A stretch of 50,076 nucleotides of DNA. It comes from Oscillatoria sp. HE19RPO (GTDB lineage: Bacteria; Cyanobacteriota; Cyanobacteriia; Cyanobacteriales; Laspinemataceae). Made by a program: the position numbers and the translations under genes. A model generated the notes under the pieces. The model saw only the letters and a program-made list of their open reading frames with translations, was not told where the DNA came from and did not search any database. Of the stretch, positions 14,799 to 38,200 are shown piece by piece. The stretch is from assembly GCF_024220515.1 (NCBI RefSeq), contig NZ_JAMXOT010000043.1, positions 1 through 50,076 on the forward strand, read 5' to 3'. Positions within the stretch are counted from its first letter, which is position 1. The number at the start of each line of letters is the position of its first letter.

Positions 14799-15707
14799 AT
14801 GGAAATGAACATCAAGCAGCTCACTTTTACGACATCGTTGATCCAAAAATATCACCAAATGGCTCAACAGTTTGGTCGGCAGCAGGTCACTGCGGTGAAA
14901 TCTGCCCAGGTATATCAGAATACCTTGGCAGTGCTGGCGGTTGATTATTATTGTCAATGTTTAGGTATCTCCACCCAGTTAACCTCTGGTGATAGCTGGA
15001 ATCCTGTCATGCAAAATTTACTGGATATTGCGGATCTACAGTTGGCGAATAGGGGAAAAATCGAATGCCTCCCGGTTCAGGTTGATACTGAATTCGTGGA
15101 AGTTAGCTCAGAGGTTTTATCAGAGAGAATCGGCTATATTGCCGTGGAAATAAATCCATCCCTGACCCAAGCAAGATTACTGGGATTTGCTGAAATCATC
15201 TCCAATAATCCTTGTCCCTTATCCCAGTTTAAGGGGTTAGAATGCTTTATTGATAGCCTTCATTCTATGCCCTCAACTCAACAGATTCATCTGTCTCAAT
15301 GGTTGCATCACTGTTGGGATGCGGGATGGAAACGGGTGGAAGAATTGTTAGAGGTTTCTCAATTAGAACTTGCGTTACAGTTTAGAACCACTCAAACTGC
15401 GGTGAAGGGCGGAAAGTTACTTGATTTGAATTCAACCGGCGATTCGGTGGCTTTATTGGTGGGAATCAAACCCACGAATCCCCCGGAAATGGATATTTGG
15501 GTGGAAGTCTATCCCATTGGCGAAAAAACCCATTTACCCCGGGATTTGCAGGTGATGGTTTTGGATAGTTCCCAAGTGTCTGTGATGCAGGCACAAGCGC
15601 GCAGTACGAAAAATATTCAACTTAATTTTAGTGGTGAACCGGGAGACCAGTTTAGTATTAAACTAGAGTTGGGGGATGTCAGCGTTACGGAAGCGTTTAT
15701 CATCTGA
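14799..15707 (+). CDS. DUF1822 family protein
   Basis: A 302-aa soluble protein of the cyanobacterial DUF1822 family. N-terminal features are the region QVYQNTLAVLAVDYYCQCLG (about residues 38-57) and GYIAVEINPSLTQARLLGF (about 112-130). The C-terminal half (MDIWVEVYPIGEKTHLPRDL) is beta-rich. No catalytic motif is visible and no function is known. It sits between a sigma-like gene and a CHAT protease gene with 23- and 28-bp gaps, and the same order recurs on the other strand at 45-49 kb. The repeated trio suggests it is an obligate partner of the CHAT protein, for example an adaptor, inhibitor or substrate. That is inference. Confidence 0.8.
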   Translation: MEMNIKQLTFTTSLIQKYHQMAQQFGRQQVTAVKSAQVYQNTLAVLAVDYYCQCLGISTQLTSGDSWNPVMQNLLDIADLQLANRGKIECLPVQVDTEFVEVSSEVLSERIGYIAVEINPSLTQARLLGFAEIISNNPCPLSQFKGLECFIDSLHSMPSTQQIHLSQWLHHCWDAGWKRVEELLEVSQLELALQFRTTQTAVKGGKLLDLNSTGDSVALLVGIKPTNPPEMDIWVEVYPIGEKTHLPRDLQVMVLDSSQVSVMQAQARSTKNIQLNFSGEPGDQFSIKLELGDVSVTEAFII

Positions 15708-15735
15708 ATTACAGGTCAAATCTGGGGGGACTAAT

Positions 15736-17559
15736 ATGGCTAAATTAGTGGTGATTAAGCTAGAGGGGGATTTCCATCGCCAGGGGTTTGGGGTGACGTT
15801 AGAAATTGGGACAGAAGGCGATCGCCCTTCCATAGAACTCCCGGGAAAATTACCCCCAGCACCGGATCTGCCGATTCGCTTGCAGCAGTGGGAAGCGAAA
15901 TATCGGAATCTTGATACCATCCGAGGACTCAAACCCAAACAAATTATTTATAATGGCTCGATGGTTCAACGGGTTCAAGAATGTCGAGATGCTGCCAAAA
16001 TTTTGAGCGATTGCTTCCAAGATTGGATTGAGTCCAAAGACTTTTTACCCCTGGATAAAACTCTACGTGAAGAGTTAAATCGGACTGAAATTGTGCGGGT
16101 GTTGATTCGCAGCAATCAGTCTTTAGTACATAAATTGCCTTGGCATTTATGGGACTTTTTTGAACGCTATCCTAATACGGAACTGGCTCTCATTTCTCCC
16201 AGTGCGAAACGAGTAGATTGTTGTAAAGGGGCTCAAAATGCGGTAAAAATTCTGGCTATTTTGGGACATAAAGAAGGGATTGATATTGAAATTGACCGCC
16301 TGGTTCTGGAAAATTTACCCGATGCGGCAGTGACTTTTCTGGTGGAACCGACGCCGGAAGAACTGAGCGATCGCCTTTGGGAAGAATCTTGGGATATTCT
16401 CTTTTTTGCTGGACATAGTGAAACCCAAGGGGAGAGTGGCCGAATTTATATTAACCCGCAAGACAGTTTAACCCTAGAAGAGTTAAAATATGGCTTAACT
16501 AAAGCCGTTGCCCGAGGATTGCAAATTGCTATCTTTAACTCCTGTGATGGATTAGGATTAGCGCGGGAATTTGCTGAGTTAAATATTCCCCAAACCGTGG
16601 TCATGCGGGAACCCGTTCCTGACTCTGTAGCTCAACGCTTTTTACAGTATTTTCTAGCGGCTTTTTCCCGAGGGGAATCGTTCTATTTAGCGATGCGAGA
16701 AGCGCGGGAAAGATTGGAGGGATTAGAAGGGGAATTTCCCTGTGCGAGTTGGTTGCCGGTGATTTGTCAAAATCCCACGATGATGCCACCGAGTTGGGCG
16801 GATTTACGGGGAAAATCTAAGGAACAGGAACGGGTATCTCCGTTGTCGCCAGCACTTAAAATGCCCGAAAAGCAATGGCATTTTAGGGCAAGTTATTCGG
16901 TCAGGTTTGTGACTGGAATTATCCTGGCGAGTCTGGGGATTATTAGTTGGCAACAAATTGCACCAACCCTAGCAACTCGGTTGAATAATAGTGGGATGGA
17001 TAGTTATGGAATAGGAGATTTATCGGACTACTGGAAAAAGTTAGATTTAGCTTGGGTTGTTGACCCCTATAATCCCAAGGTGTATTACAATCAAGCTTGG
17101 TCCTGTGAAGAGGTGCTGGATTACGACTGTGCGCGAGTCAACTATCAAAAATCTGCCAGATTAGGGTCTGCTGCCGCTTATAATCAACTCGGTTCTATCT
17201 CCATGAATGTGGATACAGATTATCACACCGCCCTTCATTTTTTCACCCGTGGATTAGAATTGGCGACCCAGGATCGGGACAAATTTGCCCTGTACAAAAA
17301 CCTAGGGTGGGTTCAACTGAAATTAAGGCGAGAGGTGGAAGCAGGAAACTCTCTGGAAATGGCCCTAAATTTACACCAGAATTATGCATCTCCTTATTGT
17401 TTGTTGGCACAAGTGCGTGATAATTTAGGGCAGTTTCCCGAGGCGATCGCCCTCTGGGAAGAGTGCCAAACCCTTGCTAACCCCCAGAAACCGGAGGAAT
17501 ATTTATGGTTAGGCATGGCAAAAAAACGGTTATTGGAAATTTCCCCTCCCCAGAATTAG
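15736..17559 (+). CDS. CHAT-domain protease with membrane anchor and TPR tail
   Basis: 607 aa from ATG 15736, chosen because GGGGGGA lies 5 nt upstream and the homologous protein at 43239-45563 starts the same way (MAKLV). The N-terminal 110 residues are a conserved lead (LPGKLPPAPDLPIRLQQWE). The caspase-like CHAT domain follows (about 170-370) with catalytic His in DILFFAGHSETQ and Cys in IAIFNSCDGLGLA, and ends near LPVICQNP. One transmembrane helix (FVTGIILASLGIISW, about residue 400) precedes tetratricopeptide-like repeats to the end. It is probably a cytoplasm-facing or surface-anchored cysteine protease whose TPRs bind partners. It is third in the sigma-like/DUF1822/CHAT operon. Confidence 0.87.
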   Translation: MAKLVVIKLEGDFHRQGFGVTLEIGTEGDRPSIELPGKLPPAPDLPIRLQQWEAKYRNLDTIRGLKPKQIIYNGSMVQRVQECRDAAKILSDCFQDWIESKDFLPLDKTLREELNRTEIVRVLIRSNQSLVHKLPWHLWDFFERYPNTELALISPSAKRVDCCKGAQNAVKILAILGHKEGIDIEIDRLVLENLPDAAVTFLVEPTPEELSDRLWEESWDILFFAGHSETQGESGRIYINPQDSLTLEELKYGLTKAVARGLQIAIFNSCDGLGLAREFAELNIPQTVVMREPVPDSVAQRFLQYFLAAFSRGESFYLAMREARERLEGLEGEFPCASWLPVICQNPTMMPPSWADLRGKSKEQERVSPLSPALKMPEKQWHFRASYSVRFVTGIILASLGIISWQQIAPTLATRLNNSGMDSYGIGDLSDYWKKLDLAWVVDPYNPKVYYNQAWSCEEVLDYDCARVNYQKSARLGSAAAYNQLGSISMNVDTDYHTALHFFTRGLELATQDRDKFALYKNLGWVQLKLRREVEAGNSLEMALNLHQNYASPYCLLAQVRDNLGQFPEAIALWEECQTLANPQKPEEYLWLGMAKKRLLEISPPQN

Positions 17560-18191: not shown

Positions 18192-19556
18192 TCACCCCAA
18201 CATTAACCGTTGATCGGCGGTGACAAAGTTATCCGGAACCTGGAGTTCGCTGGAGTTGACATTGAGTACCAGTCCCAAATAGTCCCCAGTGGCCCAGATG
18301 CGGAGGGCGATCGCTTGTTGAGATGCTCCATTGACGGCGATATCCAGTTCTTCAAAGGTTAAATCTGACAGGGATAAGCCATTATTTAAGCCAATGCGAT
18401 CGCCTTGATTGGGATTAAAATCTGCAATCATATCCACTTCCGTCACAAACCGGGATGTATTGCTGAATCCATCCTGATTGTCGGACCGCAGCACAAAAAT
18501 ATCACTTCCCGGACCGCCAATTAAACTATCTTGTCCAAAATCCCCCACCAGGAAATCATTCCCCGCTTCACCGAAGAGAATATCATTATTTTTTCCCCCT
18601 CTTACAATGTCATCCCCTGCACCGCCATATACAGTATCGTCATTATTATTCCCATTGAGGATATCATTGGCATCCTCACCCCAAATTACATCAAAATCCT
18701 TACCCCCTCGGATGTAATCGTTCGCACTTCCCCCTTGGATATCATCATTTCCCCGGTTGCCATTGATCTCATCATTGCCAGTGGTTCCGATGACTGTATC
18801 ATTGCCATTTAAGGCCAAGACGGATGTTCCCATTGCATCGGGCCAGTCTGCTAAATTAATGCGATCGCTGCCATCAGAGAGGCTAAAAAACTCGCCGAGA
18901 TTCGTAAAATCCGTTACGCCGGAGGCAGTACCGATTTCTGGAGTTCCTCGACTGGGATTAAAGGCAATCTGAGCATCGGGGACTGCTGCGGGGAGGGTTG
19001 GCAGAGAACTGGCATCTGTATAATTTCCCGCTAAGGTCATCACGGACATGGTTCCCCATTGGCCGTGAGGTCCGCTATCAATGCCGATAAACCGATGTTG
19101 GGGGTTAAAAACGTTAATCCGGTGTCCGCGACTGGGAACATTGTCATCAATCAGCAGTTGTAAGACGACATCGCGGGCGGTTTTTTTGCCGTAACTGATA
19201 TTTTCTGCGGCAGCAGTTTGCCAAGTGCCATACCGATTCAGGCGATCGCTCATGGTGCTGCCATCGGTGCCTTGATGTCCCATTAATCCTTGAGGACCTG
19301 TATCATTCACCTGATCGCGCGCTGCCATTGTCATCCCTTGAGACAATTCCAACGGCGCTAACGGCGCTTGCGATCGCAGGAATTGAATGGTTTCGGCGAT
19401 CGCACTCGGCCCTTCTATCGTGGTTAGAGAGTTGCGGACTTGTTCCAAATAGGCAGCATAGGCACTGGGGTTCGTTCGGGCGCGGTTGACTTCATCAATG
19501 ATGCCTTTTTCTAAAGAGGAAAGGTAAGGTGCTTCGGTGGGAGTGAAAGTGGACAT
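18192..19556 (-). CDS. CAP/SCP-domain protein with RTX calcium-binding repeats
   Basis: A 454-aa exported protein. Residues about 15-175 form a CAP (SCP/PR1) domain: VNRARTNPSAYA, MGHQGTDGSTMSDRLNRYG with the conserved His, AAENISYG, and GHRINVFNP with the second His. Residues about 240-350 hold RTX nonapeptides (GTTGNDEINGNRGNDDIQGG, GGAGDDIVRGG, GEAGNDFLVGD) that bind Ca2+ and mark type I secretion substrates. The last 90 residues are the usual RTX C-terminal end (DMIADFNPNQGDRIGL). There is no N-terminal signal peptide, consistent with type I secretion. It is transcribed divergently from the giant subtilase across a shared control region with PhoB-type boxes. Its target is unknown; CAP proteins can act on wall or lipid ligands. 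Confidence 0.92.
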   Translation of the reverse strand: MSTFTPTEAPYLSSLEKGIIDEVNRARTNPSAYAAYLEQVRNSLTTIEGPSAIAETIQFLRSQAPLAPLELSQGMTMAARDQVNDTGPQGLMGHQGTDGSTMSDRLNRYGTWQTAAAENISYGKKTARDVVLQLLIDDNVPSRGHRINVFNPQHRFIGIDSGPHGQWGTMSVMTLAGNYTDASSLPTLPAAVPDAQIAFNPSRGTPEIGTASGVTDFTNLGEFFSLSDGSDRINLADWPDAMGTSVLALNGNDTVIGTTGNDEINGNRGNDDIQGGSANDYIRGGKDFDVIWGEDANDILNGNNNDDTVYGGAGDDIVRGGKNNDILFGEAGNDFLVGDFGQDSLIGGPGSDIFVLRSDNQDGFSNTSRFVTEVDMIADFNPNQGDRIGLNNGLSLSDLTFEELDIAVNGASQQAIALRIWATGDYLGLVLNVNSSELQVPDNFVTADQRLMLG

Positions 19557-20119: not shown

Positions 20120-20228
20120 CTAGGCCAGAGGAGGATGGAATCGAGGCTCTATAAATAAAACGCCCAATTGTGAATCGTCAGGAAACCGTTGAGCGGGTGA
20201 ACAGAAACCAAGGGTGCATAGGAGAACA

Positions 20229-23200
20229 ATGATGTCGGACAATTTACTTTGGAATGAGTCAGGAAGTTTTTATGGTTTTTTATCGGAAGAAAATCAGAAT
20301 AATACTTTCACGAACCTAGAGGGGAAAGACCAAAAGTATGAGGCGATCGCACCTTTAATCCACAACGAACCATTAGAAGTAAATGACCCATTTCTTAATT
20401 ATAACCAGGAGAAAACGGATGCTCAGTTAAAAGAAGCCGTTGACAAGATTACCTCCGAAACCAATTTTATCCTCGGTTCTGACTCAGACACTTCTCTACA
20501 GTTTTTGGAACCTCATGAAACTAAAGTAGACCCTGTAATTACAGACCCAGACACCCTATTACGGAGCGAAGTAAGCACAGGTGAATATGATAGTTTAACG
20601 GGGGGTGAACAGACAACCGAACGAGAAGAAAGCCCCTTATTAGCAACCTCTCAACCCAGCGAAAATCCCACCCAGTCTAGCAGTTATACGGTTGAGGAAA
20701 GCCTAAATTATCAATCAGGATTCTTTACAATTACTGACCCCAGCGGCCTAGTCACCGTTGACCATTTATTTGATGGCGGTGGCTATAGTCACGGGGAATT
20801 GGCCTTCTTTAGTCTGGCAGGACTGGAACCCAATCAACTGAGTTGGAGTGAATTAGTCCAAGAAGCAGCCCGTCGCGCCTTGAGCAATTCTGAAGAGGGT
20901 TATGTGGTCATTTCTGATAGCCAAGAAGGAGCAAGATTTCATGGAGAATTAGGAGAACCCGATTATAACAAAGGGGAATATTTAGGGGTTAAGTCATTTC
21001 AAATGCGCCCGGGAGATACCTTTGGCGTAATGTTAGTCCCCAATGGTTCCGTTGCCGAACTGTGGGAAAATCCGCAACTGGGGGGAGCGAAAAAGCCGAT
21101 ATTTTCCATGAGTTTGGAACATCCCAATAACATTGAACAATTCAGCCAAGTTGTGGACATGAATGTGTTTCAACTGGCGGATGTTCTCGGAGATGGTCAT
21201 ACCTTTGCCCTAGAAGATATCCGAATTGTTAATACTAATTCCGACCAAGATTATAATGATTTTGTCTTTCAAGTGCGTGGGGCTACTGCTCAAGCGTTAC
21301 ATCTCGATCGCCTCCTAGAAGAAGGCATCTTCAAAAAGGATTGGCGCACTACTGAAATCGGCCAAGATTTGGTCAATTATGCAGAATTTGCCGTCGCCGC
21401 AGCAAACGATTTCCTCGAAGAACCCCTCACCCCTGACTTATCGGATCCGGTCAGAAATGCCGTCGATCGCGCCGGAAATTTAGACAATTATGAACAAGAA
21501 GAATTAGTAGAAAATACCGAATGGGCCGTCTGGTTTGCGCCGAATGACTATATCGATGCTTCCCAAGTTGCCAATCTTTTAGGGGCAGAAGTGCTTCGCC
21601 AAACCGGACATATTGATAACACCTACGTCTGGAAATTTCCGGAAGCTATTACCGCCGCAGAAGTGCAACAGCGATTGCAAGATTTAGTCGGTGGTGATTT
21701 TGCCTATCCTCTGATTCCCATCGAACTGAAAAAACCGCAATTTATCCCCACCGACCCCGGACTGAATGACCAGTGGCATTTAGAAGATACCGACGAAGTG
21801 AATGGCAATCCCAGTCAAGGGGCAAATGCCATTAATGCCTGGAATTGGGCAACCGGAAAAGGCGTGGTGATTGGCATTGTCGATGATGGCGTTCAGCAAG
21901 ACCATCCCGATTTAGTCGATCGCTTTAAATATGCTGCGGAAAATGGCTTAAACCTGGATTTAAACGACATTGAGGAAACCGGCGGCGAACCCGTATTTTC
22001 CGATGTGGAAACTACCTTTGGAATGTCCAACCGGATTCGCTGGTCTGATGGGCCAGTAGAATCCATTGAAGACTTGTTTGGACTGTCCAATCGCATCCGC
22101 TGGATGAATGAAGAGATTTCCTGGGACGAATTGTTTGGAATGTCGAATCGGATTCGCTGGTCGGATATGGAAATGTCCTGGGATGAGTTGTTTGGACTCT
22201 CCAATCGGATTCGTTGGTCAGAGGATTCCGAACAGTTTTTAGAAGAATTATTTGGACTTTCTAATCGAATTCGCTGGGCCAATGGTAGCGAGATGTCCTT
22301 AGAAGAATTGTTTGGACTGTCGAATCGGTTGCGATGGGCGGAAAATCCCGAATTGCTGCAAAGCGATTTGGCCGGTTTAGGCGATCGCACCTTAATCTGG
22401 AAAGGCGAAAACGCCCAAACCGAAGTTTCCTTAGAAGAACTCTTCGGACTCTCCAACCGGATTCGCTGGTCGGAAAACACCGAACAGTTCCTCGAAGAAT
22501 TATTCGGACTCTCTAACCGAATTCGCTGGTCAGATGGTAGCGAAGTCACTGAAGTCACTGTCGAAGAACTGTTCGGACTCTCCAACCGGATTCGCTGGTC
22601 AGAAGATCCGCAACTGCTTTTAGAAGATTTGTTTGGATTGTCCAATCGGATTCGCTGGTCGCAAGAAGCAAATCTGAATTGGGAGGAAATTTTCCAAGAA
22701 GCTCAAAACATCGACAGTTCCGACGACCCGGAAGCATTTTTAAAAGCATTGTTTGGTGAAGGCAATGCCATAGAATGGGAAGATGGTACGCCGATTTCCT
22801 GGGATGAACTATTTGGCCTATCCAATCGCATCCGCTGGTCGCAAGAACCGGAACTATTTTGGAATCATTTATTTGGCCTGTCGAATCGGATTCGCTGGTC
22901 AGAAGATCCGGTACTGTTCTGGGATACCTTATTTGGAATGTCCAACCGAGTGCGTTGGATGGAAGAATCCGAATTAAGTTGGGACTGGAACGAACTGTTT
23001 GGACTGTCGAATCGGATTCGCTGGTCGGAAGAACCGGGATTGTTTTTAGAAGAAGTGTTCGGACTGTCGAATCGAATTCGCTGGTCGGATGATGCTACAG
23101 TGGATTGGACGGAATTGGTCGGTAATTTGCATGAAATATTAGCGGCAGAACCGGGAGAACGCGCCGAACTGTGGCAGCAGTGGTATGGGGGAGAGAATAC

Positions 23201-26200
23201 GCTAATTTGGTCGCAAGATGAAACGCTGGTTTCTTGGCAGGAACTTGGCGCAGTGGTCACCGATATTGATTGGTCGAAAACCCTGAATGAATCGTGGAGT
23301 TGGAAACAGTTATTCGGGTTATCGAATCGGATTCGCTGGTCGGAAGAAGAGGATATTCCGCCCTATCATCCACCGGGAATGCATGGAACTGCGGTTGCTG
23401 GGGTTGCGGCAGCAGTGGGTGGAAATGGTGAAGGGGTGAGTGGAGGTGCCCCAGAAGCGGATTTAGCAGAGATTCAACTGACTGCAGAAAAAGTCACCGA
23501 TGAGAAAATTGCCAAAGCAGTATCTCACGCCCATGATGGGATTGATATCTATAACAATAGTTGGAAACCGGCGGATTCATTTGTATCGCCTGGGTTGAGT
23601 TTGGCGGCGTTGGAAAATAACGCTTTGCAAGGGCGAGATGGATTGGGAAATATTAACATTTTTGCTGCTGGAAATGATGGATGGGATGGCGGCGATGTGA
23701 ATTACAATCCGTTTGCCAATTCGCGCTATGTTATTCCAGTGGCAGCGATCGATTATCAAGGGAAACAATCCTGGTATAGCGAACCGGGGGCATCGTTATT
23801 AGTGTCGGCGTATTCGAGTTCGGCGTATCAGGATGGCAGTAGTGTGGGGATTACCACCACTGACTTGGTGAATGGGGAAGGATATGACGAGGGAAACTAT
23901 ACCGATCGCTTTGGCGGGACTTCTTCATCTGCGCCATTAGTGTCAGGAATCGTGGCGTTGATGTTAGAAACGAATCCGAATTTAACGTGGCGCGACGTGC
24001 AGCATATTTTAGTCGATACTGCCGAGCAAAATGATAACCCCGATAGCGATTGGGTGCAAAATGGTGCGGGTCGTTGGGTGAATCATAAGTATGGATTTGG
24101 CGCAGTGGATGCCACCCTTGCGGTAGAGGCGGCGATGGATTGGCAGATTGTGGAACCCGAGGTGTCGATTACTTCGGGGGCGATCGATATTTTAGGTTGG
24201 GATGGTGAGGGGAATATCCGCCACCAGATTGGCGATCGCTTGCCCAAAAACGACACAACCGGCGTAGAAATTCCCGACCTTGACACCACTGGAATAACGG
24301 ACGCCATAACGATTTACGAAGATATTGCGATCGAGAAAATTGAGCTTGTTTTCGATGCCGATGGGTTGTATCGCGGCGACTTAGAAATCGTGTTAATTTC
24401 CCCCGATGGCACTGAATCTGTCCTCGCGCAACCGCGCTTTGATGACGGGACAAGCTATGACAAATGGGTGTTTACTTCCTCGCGACATTGGGGCGAATCC
24501 TCCCTGGGGGAATGGAAACTACAAGTGCGCGATTTAATGGGTGGTGATGTCGGTACTTGGAACGGGTGGAAACTGAACTTTTACGGAACTGAAAATGATG
24601 CTGCCACCGTCAGCGTCACCGCCACCGATACCGATGCCACAGAAGACGGCAACGCCGGACAACTGGTATTTACCCGCGACGGAGGAGATATCAGTAAAGC
24701 ATTAATGGCGCAGTATGCTATTGCTGGAACTGCCACCAATGGCACAGATTATCAAGAATTAACTGGAACGGTAATTTTTGAACCCGGTCAGACCAAAGTG
24801 ACAATGGGAGTCGTTCCTTTCCACGATTACGAATTAGAAGGAAATGAAACTGTTGATATTACCTTAGTCGATGGCATTGGGTACAGTTTGGGAACCGAGA
24901 TTAGCGATACGGTTACGATTGGGAACAGCACGACAATAGACCGTTACGGTTCCTTCGTTTACGTCAATCCTGCCAACGGCCATCTGTATCTGTTAAGCGA
25001 ACCCGGCACCTGGTTAAGCGCACAAGAGCAAGCAGAAGCAGTCGGTGGAAATCTGGTTTCTATTAACACTGCTGACGAACAGCAGTGGATTGTAGATACC
25101 TTTGGAAACATTCAACCCTTCTGGATTGGGTTGACAGATAGCGAAATGTATGGTCAAGAAACGGGTGATTATCAATGGGTGAATGGAGAACCCTCTAACT
25201 ATACAAATTGGATGCCCGGAAATCCATCTAATTCTGTTTGGTCAATCGGCACAGAACATTTTGGCGAAATGAATCGTGAAGGAGATGGTCGCTGGAATGA
25301 TTTAACTTATAATTGGTCTTCCCAACCCGGCATCATCGAAATTGACCCGGCAGAACTTGACCAGCCAATTGTCAATATCATGGTCACGGATTCCCTAGCG
25401 GGAGAAGATGGTAATGCCGGACAAATCGTGATTCAGCGCATCGGCAACTTAGACCAAAGCTTGAGCGTGAATTACAGCTTGGGTGGTAATGCGACGAATG
25501 GCAGCGACCTTCAAACCTTAAGCGGCAACATCATCATTCCAGCCGGTGAAACCTTAGTAACCCTGCCGATAATTCCCCTTGCCGATGATGAAATCGAAGG
25601 CAACGAAACCCTGGTGGTTAACTTAGCAGAGGGCGACTATGAAAACGGCACCCACTCCAGCGGTCACATCATCCTCACCGACCAAAATCCGATTAATCGG
25701 ATTGCCAACGAAGCGATCGGACGCGACGTTTCCTTACTTGCATACTGGATGGAACGCTGGCAAAACGGGGAAACTTTAGAGCAATTGCGTCCGGAAATTA
25801 TTCAAGCGGCAACTGATGAAGGGAACAACGATGCCGAACTGAAAATCGCCGAATTTTATCAAGAACTGTTAGGACGAGAAGCGGAAACCACAGAGATTGC
25901 TTACTGGCGAAATCAATTAGAAATAGGTGCCACCCTGTCCCAAGTGCGTCAACAGATAGAAGGTGCAGACCTTATCGATACCACAAGTTACGTTTACACC
26001 AATCCAGTGACGGGAAATCGCTATTTCCTCACCACACCCGACACTTGGCTAGGCGCACAAGAACAAGCGCAGGCACTAGGCGGCAACCTCGTCACCATTG
26101 ACGATGCTGATGAGAATCAATGGCTGTTTGATACTTTGGGCAATGGTCCAAAATGGATTGGGTTAAATGATAGCCCGATTTATGGCAATACCGAGGGTAA

Positions 26201-29200
26201 TTATCAGTGGGTAAGTGGAGATTCAGCCCCATTTATAAACTGGCGCAACACACCGGATAACACACTTCATACTCCCGAAGGTGAAGACTTCACCGAAACG
26301 AATTTCTATGGTGTTGGCACTTGGAATGATATGCCGAGTCAACAGAATTGGATTCGGCAAGGCATCGTGGAAATTCCTGGACCCATTGCCGATCGCTCCT
26401 GGATTCGTCAATTAGGCACAGTCAACTCCGACCAATCCCGTGGCGTTGTGGTGGATAGCGATGGAAACGTCTACATTGCTGGTGCTACCAATGGTTCCCT
26501 AGATGGCAACACCAACGCCAGCGGAATTAATGCCAACTTTGCCGATCCGTTCCTCACTAAATACGATGCCGAAGGCAATAAACTCTGGACGCGCCAACCC
26601 GGTTCTACAGGATTCGACTACTACAACGGCATCGCCAACGACTCATCAGGCAATCTCTATACAGTTGGCTACGATGATGGCCCCGGTCACAATGGCACTG
26701 GCGATATCACCCTAACAAAATGGGATAGCGACGGAGATCGCCTGTGGAGTCAATTTATTGGTAATGCTGCCCATGATTGGGCCAGTGGCATTACCGTCGA
26801 TAGTGCGAGTAATGTGTATATTGCTGGTTATTCTCAAGCCGGTATTTCCGATGCCTTACTTGCCAAATTCGACAGCAATGGCAATCTGATTTGGCAGCAA
26901 ATGCTAGGGTCTGAAGGTGAAGATATGGCGCGTTCTGTGGTGACAGATGCTGCTGGAAACGTTTACGTTGCTGGCGTCACTACAGGGAACCTGGATGGTA
27001 ATACCAATGCTGGCAGCACGGATATCTTCCTGACCAAATATGACGCTTCTGGTGCCAAACTCTGGACGAAACAACTGGGAACCCCTGCCGCAGAGGGTTA
27101 CATTTACATCCCCAATGTCGGCGGAGAATATCGCCGCAACGTTCAATTAGGCATTGACAGCGAGGGTAATATTTACCTCTCCGGCACTACCGAAGGCGAC
27201 CTCAACGGCAACACCAATGCCGGACGTCAAGATGCCTTCTTGGTGAAATACGACCCCAACGGCACTCAACTGTGGACGGAACAAGTAGGAACCGCAGGGA
27301 ATGACCGAGGTTGGGGTGTCACCGTCGATCGCAATGGCATGGTCTATTGGACTGGCACCACCCAAGGGTCTCTCAACGGTCAACCGCATTTTGGCAGTAA
27401 CGATACCTTTGTCACCACATTGGATAGCGACGGCAACTTTATCAATAGCCGCATCATCGCCACCGCCAACGACGATATCGTTCAAGATATTACCAGCGAT
27501 CGCAGTGGCAACATTTACACCACTGGCAACAGTACGGGTTCCGTAGCCAACACCAACGCTGGCAATTATGACGCCTGGGTGTCCAAAAACACCTTTGTCA
27601 ACATCGGGCCTATTATTAGCGAGGAACCCACAAACCTCATCCAAAATGGCGACTTTGAAGCTGTTGATATTAGTGGCCTCTGGCAAACATACAATGATGC
27701 AACTCTACCCGACGGATTTGGTTGGTCACTTTCCAATTCCCAGGTAGAACTGATAGACCTGTTGTGGAGTGGCGTATCGGGAACCAGCAACCCAGATGGT
27801 ATTGACCAAAGCTTAGATATTGACAGCAATGCAACTCTGTCGCAAACGTTTACCACAGAAGTCGGTCAGACTTACGAGTTAAGTTTCTGGTACGCGCATA
27901 ACCCAGATTGGGAAAATGAGTCATCCACAGGATATATCGACGTTACGGGTAACGATTCTCTACTCTCAACTACTCTGACCCACGATATTCCATCAACTCT
28001 AAACAATCTCCAGTTTGTCAAATACACTTCCACTTTTACTGCCGACAGCAACAACACCATCCTGTCATTCCAGGGAGATGCTGCCAATGGTGCAACCGGG
28101 TTTGTCATTGATGACGTGCGGGTTGTCCCCGTCACCGAGTTAAACTATGAAGACTTTAGCTCGATAGAAGGACTCAACCTCATCGGTAGCGCGGCACAAC
28201 TGGGCGACACACTCCGCCTGACCCCGAAGGTGAGTATAAGTGGCGCTGGCGGTCAAGCTGGAGCGGTGTGGCACGCGACGCCGCGATCGGTGGAAGACGG
28301 TTTTGAGACCACTTTCCAATTCCAGATTAACGATTTGGGAGGCTCCGGTGGAGATGGCTTTGCTTTTGTTATTCAAAATAGCAGTGCCGATGCGATCGGT
28401 GGTGGGGGAGGAACCCTGGGCTATAGCGGCATCTACAATAGCCTCGCGCTGGAATTCGATACCTATGATAACAACGAACCCGGCACCGATGACCCCAGTG
28501 ACAATCATCTGAGCGTTCACACTGGCGGCACAGGACGAAACAGCACCTCTCTCCCGCCTCTGGGTGTCACGAACGATATTCCCAACCTGTCCGAAGGGGA
28601 AGTCCACACGGTTACAGTGAAATACATCCCCGGCACTCTGCAAATTTTCATGGATGACCTATCTACCCCGGTTTTAACGGTGCCAGTGGACTTAGGGACA
28701 ACCTTAGATTTAGATAGCGGTAAAGCTTGGGTTGGGTTTGCCGCAGCCACAGCCGGAGCATGGGAAAATCACGATATCCTCAACTGGACATTCTCCAATC
28801 CACCGGCATCAGAGAACAATGCACCCACCGTCACCACCTCCAATCTCACCCTCACAGGTGCCACAGAAAACGCCGGATTTACCGTCACTCACGCCGACTT
28901 GGTGGCGGCGACGGGTGCCACTGATATCGATGGCGACGCTCTCACATTCCGCATCCAAACCGTCGGATCCGACATTCCCACCAAAAACGGTGAACCCGTA
29001 GAAGCAGGTGTGACAACCTTATCGGCAGGTGAGGCGATCGTGTGGACTCCCACCACCGTCGGCAACGCGCAATCGGCATTCACCGCCACCCTCACCGATG
29101 GTAAAGTCACAGTGGCAACCCCAGTCACCGTCAGCATTGATGTGAATCCCGTCACCGTCAGCATCGAAGCAACCGACCCCGATGCCACAGAAGGCAGCGA

Positions 29201-31604
29201 CCCCGGCGAATTCACCTTTACTCGCACGGGAGATACCACCACTCCGATGACGGTGAATTTCACCATTGAACCGTCTATCCATTGGTCTCGTCCCCAAGCG
29301 AAGAATGGCACCGACTACGCCACAATTCCCACCAGCATTATCATTCCGGAGGGTGAATCTTCCATCACCTTGACCATTACCTCTCTGGAAGACACAGAAA
29401 CAGAATGGCCGGAAACTGTGAGGCTGCAACTTGCAGAAGGTAATGGCTACGAAATCAACAGCAGCGAACACCTGGATACGGTGGTCATTTGGGACAATGA
29501 AATCCCGGAATTACGGCTGATGGCAGAATGGTATTCCGGTCAACCGACGAATTTCCATCAAGAATCCTATGCCTCGGAATCTCGAAATGACGAACATTTT
29601 CTGTTGCGTCGAATCGGCAGTGTGGAAGAAGATTTAACGGTCTATTACTCCCTACCGGGAACCGCAACCAATGGGGAAGACTACGAAGAACTCCCCGGAA
29701 GCATTATCATTCCTGCCGGTCAACATAGTGTCTCTTTCACGTTCATCCCCATTGATGATAGTGAAGTGGAAGGGGACGAGACGGTAGAATTGACCCTCAC
29801 CCCAGATCTAACCTATACATTTATGAACTATCAAGGTCGGATTTGGGATCGGATTCCCCTGACGCTTGTGGATAATGACGACAAACCCACCGTCGAGATT
29901 ACCGTCAGCGATAATCAAGCCTCTGAATATGGCGATCCGGGTCAATTCACCATTAGCCGCACCGGCGACACCAGCAATCCGTTAACAGTGGATTACTGGA
30001 TTTCTACCGGGTGGTGGCATAAAGCCAAAAACGGCATCGATTATGAATCTATCCCAGAAAGCATCACCATTCCGGCGGGTGAATCTTCCATAACCATTGA
30101 CATCAATCCCATTGATGACAGTGAACTCGAAGAAGATGAAATTGTCGATATCTACTTAAAGAGCAATCCCAACTATGCGATGCGGGGCACGTATTACGCA
30201 CAGTTGAAGATTCTTGACAATGAAACTCAATCCCTACAGTCGCAGCAACAGTTCGGCACTTCAGCGGATGATGTTGCCAATAGCATCGCTGTGGATAGTG
30301 CGGGCAACACTTACACCGTCGGTCACACTTCGGGCAACTTAGGCGGAACCAATGCTGGTGGCAACACTATTTCCATCATCATCAACAACAGCAGTAGCGA
30401 TGTGTGGCACAGTGAAGCTGGAAGCCCTGGCGATGACGAATCCTCAGTTATGCAGGCATCGGAAAGCTCTAGCAGTTCAAGCCAAACTCAAGGGGGTGGC
30501 AAGGATGCGTTTATCGTCAAACGCGACAGCAGTGGTAGCGAATTGTGGGAGATTCAATTGGGAACTGCTGGCGATGATGAAGCGAAACAAATTGCGGTGG
30601 ATAGTGCCGATAATTTATACGTTCTCGGATGGAGTGGGGACCCGTCAAATAGCTGGATTGCCAAATACGACAGCAACGGCACTCAACAGTGGCAAAAACC
30701 CCTGGGTAGTGCGGGTTATGACATTACCAATGGTGCTTTAACCCTTGGCAATGACGGCAGTTTGTACGTGACGGGGCGTACCACTGGCGACATCGACGGC
30801 ACTAACCAAGGTGCAACGGATACTTGGGTTGCCAAATACGACAGTGAAGGTATTCAAACCTGGGTGAAACAGTTGGGTACTACCGATGAAGATGAAGCCC
30901 TGGGAATTGCGGTAGACAATAATGGCAACGTTTACATCACTGGCGAAACGAAAGGATCTTTAGCTGGAACCCGCGAAGGCGATGGGGATGCCTGGGTTGC
31001 CCAGTTAGACAGCAGTGGCAATTTGCAATGGCAAACCCAGTTAGGAACCACTGCGGTGGATATTGCCCGTAGCGTTGCTGTGGATAATAACGGTCACGTT
31101 TATTTGGGGGGTCAAACCTTTGGGTGGTTAGGCGAAACCTATCCCGGCGATCCAGATGACTGGGTAGGCGATCGCGATGCTTGGTGGAAGGCAATTCACG
31201 GCGACAAGTCCGGTTTAGGCGGCACTTACTACGGCAACGGCGATGCCTGGGTTGCCCAGTTAGATAGCACCACTGGCAGCGTCAATTGGAAGCGACTGTT
31301 AGGCACTACAAATGCCGATAGTGGCAGTACCGTCGTTGCCGATAGTTTGGGTAATGTTTACCTCACTGGAACCACCGAAGGTAAACTCGGCACCACTCAA
31401 TTTGGCGCTGATGATATCTTCCTGGCTAAATACAACGTCGATGGCGCGTTGCAGTGGAAACAACAATTTGGCAGCGACAGCGATGATGTTGTCAATGACA
31501 TGATTTTGGATATCACCGGCATCTATCTTGCGGGTGACACCACCGGCGATTTAGAGGGTTCTAATCTCGGCGAAGAAGATGCCTGGATGATGAAGTTGTC
31601 GTAG
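20229..31604 (+). CDS. Giant modular S8 (subtilisin/kexin-like) protease with lectin, Calx-beta and SBBP modules
   Basis: 3,791 aa from ATG 20229 (aggag 4 nt upstream; an in-frame GTG at 20214 is less likely). Order by residue: DUF4114 (about 164-353); prodomain-like (about 428-518); subtilase with catalytic Asp552 (IGIVDDGVQQDHPDL), His1052 (MHGTAVAG) and Ser1232 (GTSSSAP); kexin P-domain (1355-1456); Calx-beta (1458-1566); C-type lectin (1575-1708); Calx-beta (1711-1820); DUF4214 (1821-1920); second C-type lectin (1920-2053); SBBP propeller repeats (2056-2458); CBM-like (2463-2634); L-type lectin-like (2638-2858); cadherin-like (2863-2975); three Calx-beta (2975-3335); SBBP again (3337-3791). 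The Asp-His interval is 500 residues because an FGLSNRIRW repeat array is inserted. There is no signal peptide, so type I-like export is likely. It is probably a surface or extracellular protease that binds glycans. No transporter gene is in the window. Confidence 0.9.
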   Translation: MMSDNLLWNESGSFYGFLSEENQNNTFTNLEGKDQKYEAIAPLIHNEPLEVNDPFLNYNQEKTDAQLKEAVDKITSETNFILGSDSDTSLQFLEPHETKVDPVITDPDTLLRSEVSTGEYDSLTGGEQTTEREESPLLATSQPSENPTQSSSYTVEESLNYQSGFFTITDPSGLVTVDHLFDGGGYSHGELAFFSLAGLEPNQLSWSELVQEAARRALSNSEEGYVVISDSQEGARFHGELGEPDYNKGEYLGVKSFQMRPGDTFGVMLVPNGSVAELWENPQLGGAKKPIFSMSLEHPNNIEQFSQVVDMNVFQLADVLGDGHTFALEDIRIVNTNSDQDYNDFVFQVRGATAQALHLDRLLEEGIFKKDWRTTEIGQDLVNYAEFAVAAANDFLEEPLTPDLSDPVRNAVDRAGNLDNYEQEELVENTEWAVWFAPNDYIDASQVANLLGAEVLRQTGHIDNTYVWKFPEAITAAEVQQRLQDLVGGDFAYPLIPIELKKPQFIPTDPGLNDQWHLEDTDEVNGNPSQGANAINAWNWATGKGVVIGIVDDGVQQDHPDLVDRFKYAAENGLNLDLNDIEETGGEPVFSDVETTFGMSNRIRWSDGPVESIEDLFGLSNRIRWMNEEISWDELFGMSNRIRWSDMEMSWDELFGLSNRIRWSEDSEQFLEELFGLSNRIRWANGSEMSLEELFGLSNRLRWAENPELLQSDLAGLGDRTLIWKGENAQTEVSLEELFGLSNRIRWSENTEQFLEELFGLSNRIRWSDGSEVTEVTVEELFGLSNRIRWSEDPQLLLEDLFGLSNRIRWSQEANLNWEEIFQEAQNIDSSDDPEAFLKALFGEGNAIEWEDGTPISWDELFGLSNRIRWSQEPELFWNHLFGLSNRIRWSEDPVLFWDTLFGMSNRVRWMEESELSWDWNELFGLSNRIRWSEEPGLFLEEVFGLSNRIRWSDDATVDWTELVGNLHEILAAEPGERAELWQQWYGGENTLIWSQDETLVSWQELGAVVTDIDWSKTLNESWSWKQLFGLSNRIRWSEEEDIPPYHPPGMHGTAVAGVAAAVGGNGEGVSGGAPEADLAEIQLTAEKVTDEKIAKAVSHAHDGIDIYNNSWKPADSFVSPGLSLAALENNALQGRDGLGNINIFAAGNDGWDGGDVNYNPFANSRYVIPVAAIDYQGKQSWYSEPGASLLVSAYSSSAYQDGSSVGITTTDLVNGEGYDEGNYTDRFGGTSSSAPLVSGIVALMLETNPNLTWRDVQHILVDTAEQNDNPDSDWVQNGAGRWVNHKYGFGAVDATLAVEAAMDWQIVEPEVSITSGAIDILGWDGEGNIRHQIGDRLPKNDTTGVEIPDLDTTGITDAITIYEDIAIEKIELVFDADGLYRGDLEIVLISPDGTESVLAQPRFDDGTSYDKWVFTSSRHWGESSLGEWKLQVRDLMGGDVGTWNGWKLNFYGTENDAATVSVTATDTDATEDGNAGQLVFTRDGGDISKALMAQYAIAGTATNGTDYQELTGTVIFEPGQTKVTMGVVPFHDYELEGNETVDITLVDGIGYSLGTEISDTVTIGNSTTIDRYGSFVYVNPANGHLYLLSEPGTWLSAQEQAEAVGGNLVSINTADEQQWIVDTFGNIQPFWIGLTDSEMYGQETGDYQWVNGEPSNYTNWMPGNPSNSVWSIGTEHFGEMNREGDGRWNDLTYNWSSQPGIIEIDPAELDQPIVNIMVTDSLAGEDGNAGQIVIQRIGNLDQSLSVNYSLGGNATNGSDLQTLSGNIIIPAGETLVTLPIIPLADDEIEGNETLVVNLAEGDYENGTHSSGHIILTDQNPINRIANEAIGRDVSLLAYWMERWQNGETLEQLRPEIIQAATDEGNNDAELKIAEFYQELLGREAETTEIAYWRNQLEIGATLSQVRQQIEGADLIDTTSYVYTNPVTGNRYFLTTPDTWLGAQEQAQALGGNLVTIDDADENQWLFDTLGNGPKWIGLNDSPIYGNTEGNYQWVSGDSAPFINWRNTPDNTLHTPEGEDFTETNFYGVGTWNDMPSQQNWIRQGIVEIPGPIADRSWIRQLGTVNSDQSRGVVVDSDGNVYIAGATNGSLDGNTNASGINANFADPFLTKYDAEGNKLWTRQPGSTGFDYYNGIANDSSGNLYTVGYDDGPGHNGTGDITLTKWDSDGDRLWSQFIGNAAHDWASGITVDSASNVYIAGYSQAGISDALLAKFDSNGNLIWQQMLGSEGEDMARSVVTDAAGNVYVAGVTTGNLDGNTNAGSTDIFLTKYDASGAKLWTKQLGTPAAEGYIYIPNVGGEYRRNVQLGIDSEGNIYLSGTTEGDLNGNTNAGRQDAFLVKYDPNGTQLWTEQVGTAGNDRGWGVTVDRNGMVYWTGTTQGSLNGQPHFGSNDTFVTTLDSDGNFINSRIIATANDDIVQDITSDRSGNIYTTGNSTGSVANTNAGNYDAWVSKNTFVNIGPIISEEPTNLIQNGDFEAVDISGLWQTYNDATLPDGFGWSLSNSQVELIDLLWSGVSGTSNPDGIDQSLDIDSNATLSQTFTTEVGQTYELSFWYAHNPDWENESSTGYIDVTGNDSLLSTTLTHDIPSTLNNLQFVKYTSTFTADSNNTILSFQGDAANGATGFVIDDVRVVPVTELNYEDFSSIEGLNLIGSAAQLGDTLRLTPKVSISGAGGQAGAVWHATPRSVEDGFETTFQFQINDLGGSGGDGFAFVIQNSSADAIGGGGGTLGYSGIYNSLALEFDTYDNNEPGTDDPSDNHLSVHTGGTGRNSTSLPPLGVTNDIPNLSEGEVHTVTVKYIPGTLQIFMDDLSTPVLTVPVDLGTTLDLDSGKAWVGFAAATAGAWENHDILNWTFSNPPASENNAPTVTTSNLTLTGATENAGFTVTHADLVAATGATDIDGDALTFRIQTVGSDIPTKNGEPVEAGVTTLSAGEAIVWTPTTVGNAQSAFTATLTDGKVTVATPVTVSIDVNPVTVSIEATDPDATEGSDPGEFTFTRTGDTTTPMTVNFTIEPSIHWSRPQAKNGTDYATIPTSIIIPEGESSITLTITSLEDTETEWPETVRLQLAEGNGYEINSSEHLDTVVIWDNEIPELRLMAEWYSGQPTNFHQESYASESRNDEHFLLRRIGSVEEDLTVYYSLPGTATNGEDYEELPGSIIIPAGQHSVSFTFIPIDDSEVEGDETVELTLTPDLTYTFMNYQGRIWDRIPLTLVDNDDKPTVEITVSDNQASEYGDPGQFTISRTGDTSNPLTVDYWISTGWWHKAKNGIDYESIPESITIPAGESSITIDINPIDDSELEEDEIVDIYLKSNPNYAMRGTYYAQLKILDNETQSLQSQQQFGTSADDVANSIAVDSAGNTYTVGHTSGNLGGTNAGGNTISIIINNSSSDVWHSEAGSPGDDESSVMQASESSSSSSQTQGGGKDAFIVKRDSSGSELWEIQLGTAGDDEAKQIAVDSADNLYVLGWSGDPSNSWIAKYDSNGTQQWQKPLGSAGYDITNGALTLGNDGSLYVTGRTTGDIDGTNQGATDTWVAKYDSEGIQTWVKQLGTTDEDEALGIAVDNNGNVYITGETKGSLAGTREGDGDAWVAQLDSSGNLQWQTQLGTTAVDIARSVAVDNNGHVYLGGQTFGWLGETYPGDPDDWVGDRDAWWKAIHGDKSGLGGTYYGNGDAWVAQLDSTTGSVNWKRLLGTTNADSGSTVVADSLGNVYLTGTTEGKLGTTQFGADDIFLAKYNVDGALQWKQQFGSDSDDVVNDMILDITGIYLAGDTTGDLEGSNLGEEDAWMMKLS
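22015..23355 (+). repeat. In-frame ~60-bp / ~20-aa repeat array (FGLSNRIRW) inside the protease domain
   Basis: I count 16 copies of FG(L/M)SNR(I/L/V)RW, usually as LFGLSNRIRW followed by acidic spacers such as SEDPELFLEE. Degenerate copies lie between (LAGLGDRTLIW, LFGEGNAIEW, GGENTLIW). The array fills residues about 596-1041, between the catalytic Asp and His. At DNA level most copies share cgaatcggattcgctgg, itself a small hairpin (cgaat-cgg-attcg). Synonymous differences between copies show the repeat is held at protein level, not freshly duplicated. Confidence 0.92.
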
Positions 31605-31904: not shown

Positions 31905-32663
31905 ATGGATTCTAATTCATTTGTGACGATCGCTGACGAATCTTTCTCCTTTAAACAAGTCTGCCAAATGCTGAAAGTGTCTGGCGGCTTGCAACGAATG
32001 CTTGGCGACTTCAAGCAGCACTACGTTCTCACCCAAGAACTGGAAAATCGTTCTGACATCAAGGCGACTAAATTTCAAATTAATGAGGCAATTTCCAATT
32101 TTACCCGACAAGCCAATCTCTTAAATCCCAGCAAGTTTAACGAATGGCTATCGAAAAATCATCTAACTTATGATGAGTTTTGCGAGCAACTGGCCTTTGG
32201 GATTAAGGTGGAAAAGCTGAAAATAGCGATCGCCAAGCCGGAACTCGAAAAACGGTTTGAGGAACGGCAAGAATTATGCGATCGCGTGGTGCTTTCTCGA
32301 ATCCTCGTTAAAGACAAAGAAACCGCGATTGAACTCAAAGCGCAATTGGAGAGCGATCGTAGTCAATTTGAGGCGATCGCCAAAGAAAAAACCCTTCTCG
32401 ATGAAGATAAAGCCGTTGGCGGTATGGTGGGTACGGTACGAATCGGTCAACTGCCAGTACCCCTGCGAGAAGCGCTCAAAGATGCCAAAACCGACGAAAT
32501 TATCGGACCCGTGGATTTAGACGGACGATATTGCTTGTGTTGGGTACGCGATCGCTTGCCTGCCTCTATAGATGACCCCATCATCCAGCGAGAACTTCGC
32601 GAAGTATTGTTTCAAGAATGGTTGCAAAAACGACTTAAAGAAACGACTCTTCGCTTAGAATAA
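31905..32663 (+). CDS. PpiC-type (parvulin-like) peptidylprolyl isomerase
   Basis: A 252-aa soluble protein with the SurA/PpiC layout. The N-terminal helical chaperone half (residues 1-120, e.g. FNEWLSKNHLTYDEFCEQL) precedes a parvulin domain at about 125-225 (VVLSRILVKDKETAIELKAQ, GGMVGTVRIGQLP, EIIGPVDLDGRYCLCWV). No signal peptide. Cyanobacterial relatives of this type often lie beside peptidase-type ABC exporters and HlyD proteins, so it may help fold or hold exported proteins such as the giant subtilase upstream. That link is inference, since no exporter genes are present here. The gene is separated from the subtilase by 300 bp of inverted repeats and has no strong ribosome-binding site. 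Confidence 0.8.
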   Translation: MDSNSFVTIADESFSFKQVCQMLKVSGGLQRMLGDFKQHYVLTQELENRSDIKATKFQINEAISNFTRQANLLNPSKFNEWLSKNHLTYDEFCEQLAFGIKVEKLKIAIAKPELEKRFEERQELCDRVVLSRILVKDKETAIELKAQLESDRSQFEAIAKEKTLLDEDKAVGGMVGTVRIGQLPVPLREALKDAKTDEIIGPVDLDGRYCLCWVRDRLPASIDDPIIQRELREVLFQEWLQKRLKETTLRLE

Positions 32664-35215: not shown

Positions 35216-38200
35216 ATGACGCTATTGATGAAACCACACCTTTTCCCCGTCGTCCTCTCCGTCAGCTTAACCCTCTGCTGGTTTGCCATAGCACCCACTC
35301 GAACTTCAGCGCAAATTGTCCCCGATCGCACGTTACCGGAAAATTCCCGCGTCACCCCAGACGGCAACACCTTTATTATTGAAGGCGGGACCTCCACCAC
35401 CGGCGGGACTCTCTTCCACAGTTTTGAAGAATTTTCTGTCCCCACAAATACCGAAGCATTATTCAACAACACGGATCAAATCAACCAAATTCTCACCCGG
35501 ATCACGGGTGGTTCTATCTCTAATATTGATGGGATTTTAAGAGCAAAGGGCAACGCTAACCTGTTTTTCCTCAACCCCAACGGCATTGTTTTTGGTCCCA
35601 ATGCGCGACTACAACTCGGGGGGTCTTTTCTGGCAACAACAGGCGATCGGTTTGTCTTTGCTGATGGTTCATTCTTTAGCGCCACCAATCCCCAAACCCT
35701 ACCCCTCCTCACCGTAAATGCGCCGGTTGGATTGCAATTTGGCACCACATCCGGACCCATTAATGTATTAGGAATCGGTCATAATTTAGAAGTCGATGAA
35801 TTCGGTGCAGTCGATCGCAGCGATCGGTCCGATGGACTCCAAGTGAATCCCGGTAATACCCTGGCAATTCTGGGGTCATCGGTTACCCTCAATGGCGGCA
35901 ACTTAATTGCAGAATCTGGACGCATTGAGGTGGGAAGTGTGAGCGCAGGTAGCACTGTCGGTTTAACCTCAACGGCACAAAATCTCTCCTTCGATTATCA
36001 AAATGTCACCGGATTTCAAGATATTCAACTCACGGAAGCAGCCTCAATTGATGCTAGTGGTCCCGGTGGGGGAGAACTCCGCGTTCATGGACAAAATATT
36101 AACCTCAATAATTCATCGGTTATTTTATCTATAACAGAGGGAGAAGAAATTGGAAAAACTGTCGAAATCAATGCTGCTGATTCTCTCAATTTAAGTGAAT
36201 TTTCTGCGATTCTTGCTGAAACTTATGGTTTTGGTATCGGGGCTGATTTAACAATTAATGCGGGACAGTTACGGGTTGGAAATGGCGCAACGATATCCAC
36301 GGGGGTGAATGAAGGACAACCGGGAAATGCCTTGAATATCGAGGTGCGTGAGTTAATTCTCGAAGAAGGGGGACAAATTTCTGCCTCTAGCTTTTTTGAA
36401 GAAGGACAAGCCGGTGACATTAATATTAGAGCCTCTGAATCAATTACAGTTAGTGGAGAAGGAGAAGATCTAGGAGGAAATCCGCGTGCGAGCAGTATTT
36501 CTTCAAATCAAAATAATCCATTAGGAACTGGGAGTGGAGGCAATGTTGTTTTAGAAACCCCAACTCTCATTGTAGATAAAGGAGGACAAATTGCAGTTGG
36601 AACAGTTGGATTGGGTCCCGGTGGAAATTTAATAATTCGGGTATCAGAATCTATCAAATTGGCGGGAACAGGAACTGAGGGCGACCCGAGTGGAATTTTT
36701 GCTTCATCGATGGGTTTGGGTCAAGCCGGAAATTTAACGATAGAAACCAACGAACTGGTTATCCGAGATGGTGCAAGGGTATCCGCCAGGGGAGATACTC
36801 TTGGAGAAATATTACAGTTTTTTGAAATAGAGAGTTTTGACGAGCTACCCGCTGAAATTTTAGGGTTGATTTTAGAAGTATTGGACCTTGAAAATGTTCG
36901 CCAAATCCAACCAGGTCAAGCAGGAAATATTAGAATTAATGCGGCTGATATTTTTTTAGAAAATCAAGGCAGTATCCGAGCTACAACCGCAGCAGGAGAG
37001 GATGCTAATATTACCATCACCACGAATAATTTACAATTACGCAGAGGTGGTAGTATTACAACTAATGCGTCGAATTTTGCCACAGGGGGGAATATTACCA
37101 TTGATACCCAAACCCTAGTTATGGGAGAAAATAGTAATATTACCGCTCAGGCAGAAGATGGACGAGGAGGGAATATTCAACTGAATACTACAGCGGATAT
37201 TCGGTCTTTTGATAGTGATATTGATGCCAGTTCTCAACGGGGAATTGATGGGGTGGTGGCCATTAATCGCCCGGAAGTTGACCCGGCTGCTGCATTGGTT
37301 GAATTGGAAGAGGACCGGATTAATCCCGTTGCGCTGGTTCCCCGAGGATGTGATGTGGGGAGTGGTGACAATAGCAGTCGATTTATTGTTTCGGGATGGG
37401 GAGGATTACCGCCATCGCCTCGGGAACCTCGTTCGGGTGGTAATTTTATTGATAATTTAGACCCGCTTCCTGGGCGAAATTCTGAGGGTTCTGGGGAGAA
37501 TTTCGGAAATTTTTCGCTTGGGGAATCTGTCCTAGTTCAACGCATTTCAGAAGCCTCGAATTGGCAATTGAATGAGCAGGGTGAGGTGGTTCTGATTGCT
37601 GCTGTTGAGAAGAGTTCACCAGATTTACCGGGGATTGGTTGTGATGGAGAGGCGCTTTCTCCCGGTTTGAAAAATGTGGGGACTGAGGCATCGGGTATCC
37701 CGGAATCGATTACGGTGGCGCGATTTAATGTGGTTGGCAATTCGGTGTTTTCTGAGGCGGAAGTTAGTCAAGTTTTAGCGCCTTATACGAATCGATCGCT
37801 CTCGTTTGCGGACCTGCGAGAGGCTCGTTCGGCGATTACCAATCTCTATGTGGAAGCGGGATATATTACGACGGGTGCCTATCTGCCACCCCAAACGGTG
37901 CGGGAGAATACGGTGGAAATTGCCGTGGTTCCGGGGATGTTACAAGATATTGAGGTGAATTCAAATCGTCTGAATAATTATGTGCGCGATCGCCTCTGGG
38001 TTGCGATCGGGAATGAACCCGTGAATGTGAACCGAATTGTGGAAGCGTTACGCTTACTCAGACTCGATCCATTAATCCAAGATGTGCAAGGGGAACTCCG
38101 CGCTGTCCCTATCCCGGGACAAAATATACTAGAAGTGAACATCATTGAAGCGTCCCCCTTTTCCGAGACCCAATTGGTTTTGGATAACCGCCGATCGCCT

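Follow-up and report, generated by a model that had tools for sequence, protein, structure and literature searches.

The protease gene and its repeat array

The window analysed here is a stretch of 50,076 nt from Oscillatoria sp. HE19RPO (contig NZ_JAMXOT010000043.1, positions 1-50,076). It encodes a giant protease of the S8 (subtilase) type whose catalytic Asp and His are separated by an array of short tandem repeats. The reading frame (20214-31604, plus strand) runs without interruption over its full length. The original prediction described an array lying between the catalytic Asp and His of a protease with intact triad motifs, and this was borne out. The motifs IVDDGV, HGTAVAG and GTSSSAP follow one another in order (Pfam S8, E 9.7e-38), and the Asp and His lie exactly 500 residues apart, whether numbering begins at GTG or at ATG. 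The residue numbers of that prediction (Asp552, His1052) are five lower than those used here because the ATG, and not the GTG, had been taken as the start. The features of the gene are as follows.

20214-31604, plus strand: giant S8 (furin/kexin-like) protease gene, 3796 amino acids from GTG, with an in-frame ATG five codons downstream
21003-21281, plus strand: DUF4114 domain, residues 264-356 (Pfam)
21882-21884, plus strand: codon of the catalytic Asp557 (IVDDGV), computed from the motif position
22017-23339, plus strand: repeat array, 16 strict FG[LM]SNR[ILV]RW copies and degenerate units, about 22 units of ~20 residues
22371-22400, plus strand: degenerate unit AGLGDRTLIW
22752-22778, plus strand: degenerate unit FGEGNAIEW
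23184-23210, plus strand: degenerate unit YGGENTLIW
23247-23273, plus strand: degenerate unit GAVVTDIDW
23382-23384, plus strand: codon of the catalytic His1057 (HGTAVAG), from the motif position
23673-23675, plus strand: Asn1154 (AAGNDG), aligned with the GN of furin, which we take to have the oxyanion role
23922-23924, plus strand: codon of the catalytic Ser1237 (GTSSSAP), from the motif position, aligned with furin GTSASAP
24333-24581, plus strand: P domain of the proprotein convertase type (PF01483), residues 1374-1456 (Pfam, E 4.4e-20)

The P domain sits directly after the catalytic domain. The Pfam domains of the whole protein are DUF4114, S8, the P domain, Calx-beta (5 stretches), C-type lectin (2), L-type lectin, SBBP (13) and several weaker families. 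When the part from just before the His through the P domain was compared with PDB sequences, furin (3.1e-52) and kexin (1.7e-50) ranked best, so the enzyme can be assigned to the S8B type; the furin alignment continues from the His onward. The VDG and NCDG residues of furin form the S1 pocket, in which acidic residues give specificity for Arg or Lys. In the one alignment considered, the window protease has a gap opposite the furin VDG segment and an Asn opposite the Asp of NCDGYTNS, which makes Arg specificity of this enzyme doubtful.

The 16 strict copies comprise 12 of FGLSNRIRW, 2 of FGMSNRIRW and one each of FGLSNRLRW and FGMSNRVRW. Their DNA is represented by 15 distinct sequences, so the protein motif is constant while its codons vary. 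A 27-base pattern of the motif matched the genome of origin 14 times on the forward and 0 times on the reverse strand, the control with the reversed pattern gave 0 matches, and the other 385 of the 386 genomes of the phylum (a sample that excludes the three array-bearing relatives) gave none; the array is therefore beyond chance. With a shorter pattern of 18 bases, the forward strand was matched 16 times and the reverse strand 0 times, against 2 and 2 for the control. The longer gaps between strict copies are filled by the four degenerate units listed above and two weaker ones, which brings the array to about 22 units when three stretches of 40-43 residues are taken as two units each.

The consensus of 43 units from the window and from the orthologues in genomes G003 and G004 reads S-E/D-D/E-P/T-E-L-S/F-W/L-E-E-L-F-G-L-S-N-R-I-R-W, with units shorter than 20 residues dropped out of the pattern. 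In the four listed degenerate units, the hydrophobic residue two positions before the final Trp is kept, G..N/D is kept in three, and R-x-R is not kept. The 441 residues of the array contain 38 Lys and Arg (only 4 of them Lys) and 84 Asp and Glu. Over 14 units, the mean moment of R-I-R-W is 1.77 at 170 degrees vs 0.37 at 100, a strand-like alternation, and that of the spacer plus F-G is 0.26 at 100 degrees vs 0.16 at 170, which is mildly helical.

Selection on the array and its distribution

The claim that selection keeps the repeat was upheld by the ratio of nonsynonymous to synonymous substitution rates (dN/dS). For the motif, this ratio is 0.062 between the window and G003, 0.077 between the window and G004, and 0.057 between G003 and G004. 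The spacers, with the degenerate units included, give 0.104, 0.116 and 0.166 for the same pairs, and the 496 codons from the His onward give 0.091, 0.097 and 0.111. These values come from a simple counting method and are rough, with dS at 0.7-1.4 against the window. The spacers seem to matter too, since their ratios of 0.10-0.17 stand beside 0.09-0.11 from the His onward. Synonymous codon differences between the window and G004 amount to 0.40 for orthologous copies (15 pairs) and 0.46 for non-orthologous copies (225 pairs), and to 0.47 within the window (120 pairs). Homogenisation of the copies would require the within-window difference to be the smallest of the three, and so the copies have not been homogenised. 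Judging from the low ratios in motif, spacers and the region from the His onward, the array is an old, constrained module under purifying selection.

Among 79 genomes searched, the array protein was matched in five, including its own. One of these, G067 (29% identity, 11 stops), was judged a chance match, which leaves the genome of origin and three others of the same genus (4/79); Laspinema palackyanum is among the carriers, and the array was found in this one genus only. Within a sample of eight genomes of the genus, four carry the array (own included), and one of the four without a match, G005, is 87% complete. A pattern scan of the genome_contigs collection returned ten stretches, four of them from Laspinema palackyanum D2a and Phormidium pseudopriestleyi FRX01. 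The remaining six come from unrelated bacteria with a single motif each and were judged chance. The Phormidium pseudopriestleyi copy (L057; G001:C139 and C156) is divided between two contigs, each of which breaks off within the array, and its frame is interrupted upstream.

The orthologues passed the check proposed for them. They keep the Asp motif, the His motif and the array, and the two with aligned sequence reaching that far keep the GTS motif. The Asp-His distance is 500 residues in all three complete copies (window, G003, G004), with 16, 14 and 15 strict copies, respectively. The domain content after the catalytic part varies: SBBP has 4 stretches in G004 and 13 in the window, and G004 gave no match to L-type lectin or DUF642 at E 0.001.

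The Asp-His loop in related proteases

Relatives were gathered by their N-terminal block, and their Asp-His segments were cut out (97, of which 75 were unique). Removal of L027, L028 and L035, which are other subtilases, left 72 unique segments; near-copies, for example L020, L029 and L030, each count on their own. In nine open reading frames, the Asp block was present and the His block absent. Where the Asp had been assigned too late or missed (L082, L019, L110 and L009-L011; L022, L028, L068, L071 and L129), the initial segment lengths were in error or absent; the corrected lengths for the group of L082, L019, L110 and L009-L011 are 41, 82, 170 and 500.

The 72 segments consist of 16 short and 48 long ones, 3 that are Trp-rich (L019, L021, L032), 1 other (L100), 1 with a different repeat (L083) and 3 with the array described here. 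A P_proprotein match at E 0.01 or better was obtained for 34 of the 48 long inserts; the other 14 had none. The consensus preceding the insert, DLSxDFxExDxDPSP, presumably corresponds to the calcium-loop region of furin. In L083 (2005-3240, and likewise in L140), 411 residues separate Asp and His and contain four basic motifs of the LAxKRKNSPND type, spaced 38, 37 and 37 residues apart; a profile of the 20-residue unit gave no match on this protease. The view that a repeat or insert inside this catalytic domain is without parallel therefore had to be given up, given the P-domain matches and the unrelated repeat of L083. As far as the aligned segments show, the Asp-His loop is a recurrent insertion slot among relatives of the window protease. 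In L085, by eye, a second P-domain-like stretch seems present further along the catalytic domain, after the catalytic His.

Two trees were built. The first contains 69 of the 72 rows (L083, one long and one short row had too little sequence; the label Plike in this tree refers to length only), and it groups the array rows with the Trp-rich rows at a support of 100/98. The second contains 56 rows, with 14 of the 17 outer-clade rows left out and L140 added. It recovers the same group at 94/84, and the L083/L140 protein joins it at a weak 80/83. If this weak grouping holds, the loop content changed more than once in the clade of the window protease, with P-like inserts dominating elsewhere.

Searches for known families and origins

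Searches of the array against family libraries agreed with the expectation of a repeat without a described relative. No Pfam family passed its curated cut-off, NCBIfam gave no match and nothing convincing emerged among PDB sequences; the array alone did not match P_proprotein (PF01483). Three Pfam families scored below the cut-off with no stretch passing alone; one of them, CoV_NSP7 (0.00035), and the PHROGs matches (best 3.2e-08), likewise without a single passing stretch, were taken as sums of weak repeats. The PDB entry 8cli_B (E 0.026 to the array) was judged a chance match. By sequence comparison, the repeat is thus one without a family in the libraries searched (Pfam, NCBIfam, PDB sequences). 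The motif FGLSNRIRW does not occur in the open-licence PubMed Central (PMC) literature.

Several origins were considered and set aside. An intein is not indicated, with no Hint or intein domain in Pfam scans of the protein or the array. A mobile or viral origin was rejected since the array had no match in the viral_contigs, plasmids or phages collections. In a separate scan of viral_contigs, intended to widen the alignment for structure prediction, the protease part downstream of the array had no relative. The Trp-rich loop of L019 resembles the array by eye (LFWLLYNR). Derivation of the array from such loops of sister enzymes was rejected, as the unit profile scores them no better than shuffles (1000 per loop): among shuffles reporting a score, 339/829 scored as high as the real loop for L019, 564/893 for L021 and 123/853 for L032.

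Neighbouring genes

A CAP-domain protein with RTX repeats (18192-19556, minus strand) adjoins the protease gene in divergent orientation. Orthologues at 91-93% occur only in the four of eight genus genomes (own included) that carry the array, and they lie beside it; the other four have at best about 50% over part of the protein or 38% over most of it. This protein is a candidate partner or substrate of the protease, and linkage alone could explain the pattern.

After the protease gene, a PPIC-type isomerase is found at 31905, with a 93% orthologue in G003 and a 54-residue fragment (91%) in G004. An open reading frame at 35216-39193 (plus strand) combines a TPS secretion domain with POTRA/ShlB transporter domains, i.e., a fused two-partner secretion pair. 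On both sides, the region is flanked by proteins with a CHAT domain and TPR matches (15676-17559 and 39820-42000, plus strand). In positions 1-453 of the window, at the end of the contig, there are 32-base and 56-base tandem repeats.

A proposed repeat arm at the active site and alternative explanations

The loop just before the catalytic His may have grown into an arm of repeats at the side of the substrate cleft, where it would serve as exosite or gate. Of the explanations considered this is the most likely one, given a root of the arm adjacent to the catalytic His and beside the cleft, though our confidence in it falls somewhat short of even. In each ~20-residue unit, the spacer up to F-G would form a short helix, S-N a turn and R-I-R-W a strand. 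With the I and W of the strand facing inward and both Arg residues outward, stacked units would present rows of Arg above an acidic helical face. Such an arm could capture or admit selected large substrates or an acidic partner, e.g., sheath polysaccharide, and catalysis itself would stay standard. The proposal is supported by the triad, the similarity to furin and kexin, the P domain, the constrained motif and spacers, the unhomogenised copies, and an Asp-His length fixed at 500 residues while the domains after the catalytic part differ between orthologues. Also in its favour are the strand-like alternation of R-I-R-W, the residues kept in the four listed degenerate units, the charge composition of the array, and the variability of subtilisin loop 50-59, which likewise lies between the catalytic Asp and His.

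Several observations weigh against it. The arm root is placed by the cleft on the strength of what subtilisin structures show in general. A predicted model of the catalytic domain with the array (881 amino acids, 4-row alignment; mean predicted local distance difference test score, pLDDT, 34.5) gives no confident structure, with short helices and a few short strands in the array. A five-unit model (8 rows, mean pLDDT 49.0) has helices only, at odds with the helix-strand proposal, though its score is too low to settle the point. Overall, the array is acidic. The weaker degenerate units EIFQEAQNI and LVGNLHEIL keep neither G..N nor Trp, and the final Trp is lost in orthologue units of G003 (FATSTRIEF, FGEGDWIQS) and G004 (FATSNRVEF, AGLGDRTLIL). 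Since degenerate units have other residues in place of Arg, the row of Arg need not be continuous.

The main rival, which we regard as rather unlikely, is a structural brace: by analogy with the jellyroll of CspB and the P domains of kexin-type enzymes, the array would pack on the catalytic domain and stabilise it or its maturation without touching the substrate. P-domain matches occupy the same slot in 34 of the 48 long inserts of relatives, and constraint on the spacers comes close to that on the region from the His onward. According to the excerpt of PMC3567191, the CspB jellyroll lends the protease stability and helps it to process itself, and the authors liken it to P domains. However, 16 of the 72 related segments are short, the window protease already has a P domain after its catalytic part, and 441 residues are a lot for such a role. 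It is improbable that the array is an assembly scaffold, as suggested by analogy with TPPII, through which several molecules join into a large complex, active only when assembled. Contacts from one molecule to the next could be made by its basic motifs with acidic spacers, and the excerpt of PMC2933905 gives TPPII, with its Asp-44 and His-264, as an enzyme for which complex formation is the only demonstrated way of activation. This excerpt does not tie the TPPII insert itself to assembly (PMC2933905), and the catalytic part of the window protease is furin/kexin-like by sequence, and the 40 PDB sequences that it matched do not include TPPII by name.

Kexins cleave behind basic residues, and a conserved 9-residue motif between variable acidic spacers resembles a multi-copy peptide precursor. 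The RIR-W motifs might then be cleavage sites or pseudosubstrates of the enzyme's own active site, releasing peptides or holding it inactive. The doubtful Arg specificity (VDG gapped, NCDG Asp aligned with Asn), the constrained spacers and the loss of Arg in degenerate units leave this a slim prospect. In subtilisin, Asp32 and His64 flank loop 50-59. That loop is among the most variable ones, according to the excerpt of PMC9549277. The Asp-His loop varies across the relatives of the window protease, as expected if a neutral repeat expansion were tolerated on the surface. With dN/dS of 0.06-0.17 over the array, an unchanged Asp-His length and no homogenisation, neutrality is barely credible here.

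The exosite or gate can be placed in a broader and still more tentative proposal. The loop before the His in cyanobacterial furin/kexin-like proteases may be an evolvable socket into which whole modules can be fitted (P domains, Trp-rich stretches and at least two different repeat arrays). In the Laspinema clade, it may hold a ~20-residue repeat of a new fold, with about 22 units, as an exosite at the side of the active site, i.e., a naturally occurring arm of repeats built into a catalytic domain. If true, this would be a protease family with a natural socket beside the active site that receives very different modules. It would offer a testable system for the origin of exosites and a possible route to designed substrate selectivity, and the repeat, with 16 near-identical units, is regular enough for structural work.

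Comparison with known enzymes

The furin/kexin-type convertases (S8B) share with the window protease the catalytic motifs and the downstream P domain and are its best PDB matches. They differ in the Asp-His distance, which is a few tens of residues instead of 500, and in lacking the giant multi-domain C-terminus; furin also differs in its VDG and NCDG segments. Cyanobacterial subtilases of the DUF4114 type (L030, L087, L076 and others) have a related N-terminal block and the same slot, but their insert matches P_proprotein (34 of the 48 long inserts) in place of a short tandem repeat.

We know of no repeat of the kind seen in the window array in TPPII, which belongs to a different subtilase group; the only comparison with it was indirect, through the 40 PDB sequences matched at E 0.001 with the part from the His through the P domain. 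TPPII resembles the window protease in its large catalytic Asp-His spacing (excerpt of PMC2933905). An extra module inside the subtilase domain is likewise present in CspB of Clostridium, where a jellyroll domain interrupts it (excerpt of PMC3567191), and in subtilisins with PA-domain inserts (excerpt of PMC2605481). These inserts are single folded domains and not repeat arrays, and they are compared here by presence, not by place relative to Asp and His. With TPPII (PMC2933905) and CspB (PMC3567191) as precedents in these excerpts, the idea that an insert here is without parallel does not stand. A further likeness is the L083/L140 protease, from another family of the same order: it has a tandem repeat in the same slot, with a basic motif and acidic spacers, and differs in its four copies at 37-38-residue spacing and its LAxKRKNSPND type. 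On these comparisons, the window protease is an enzyme of a known kind with a repeat absent from the libraries searched, and the position of this repeat is less singular than first thought.

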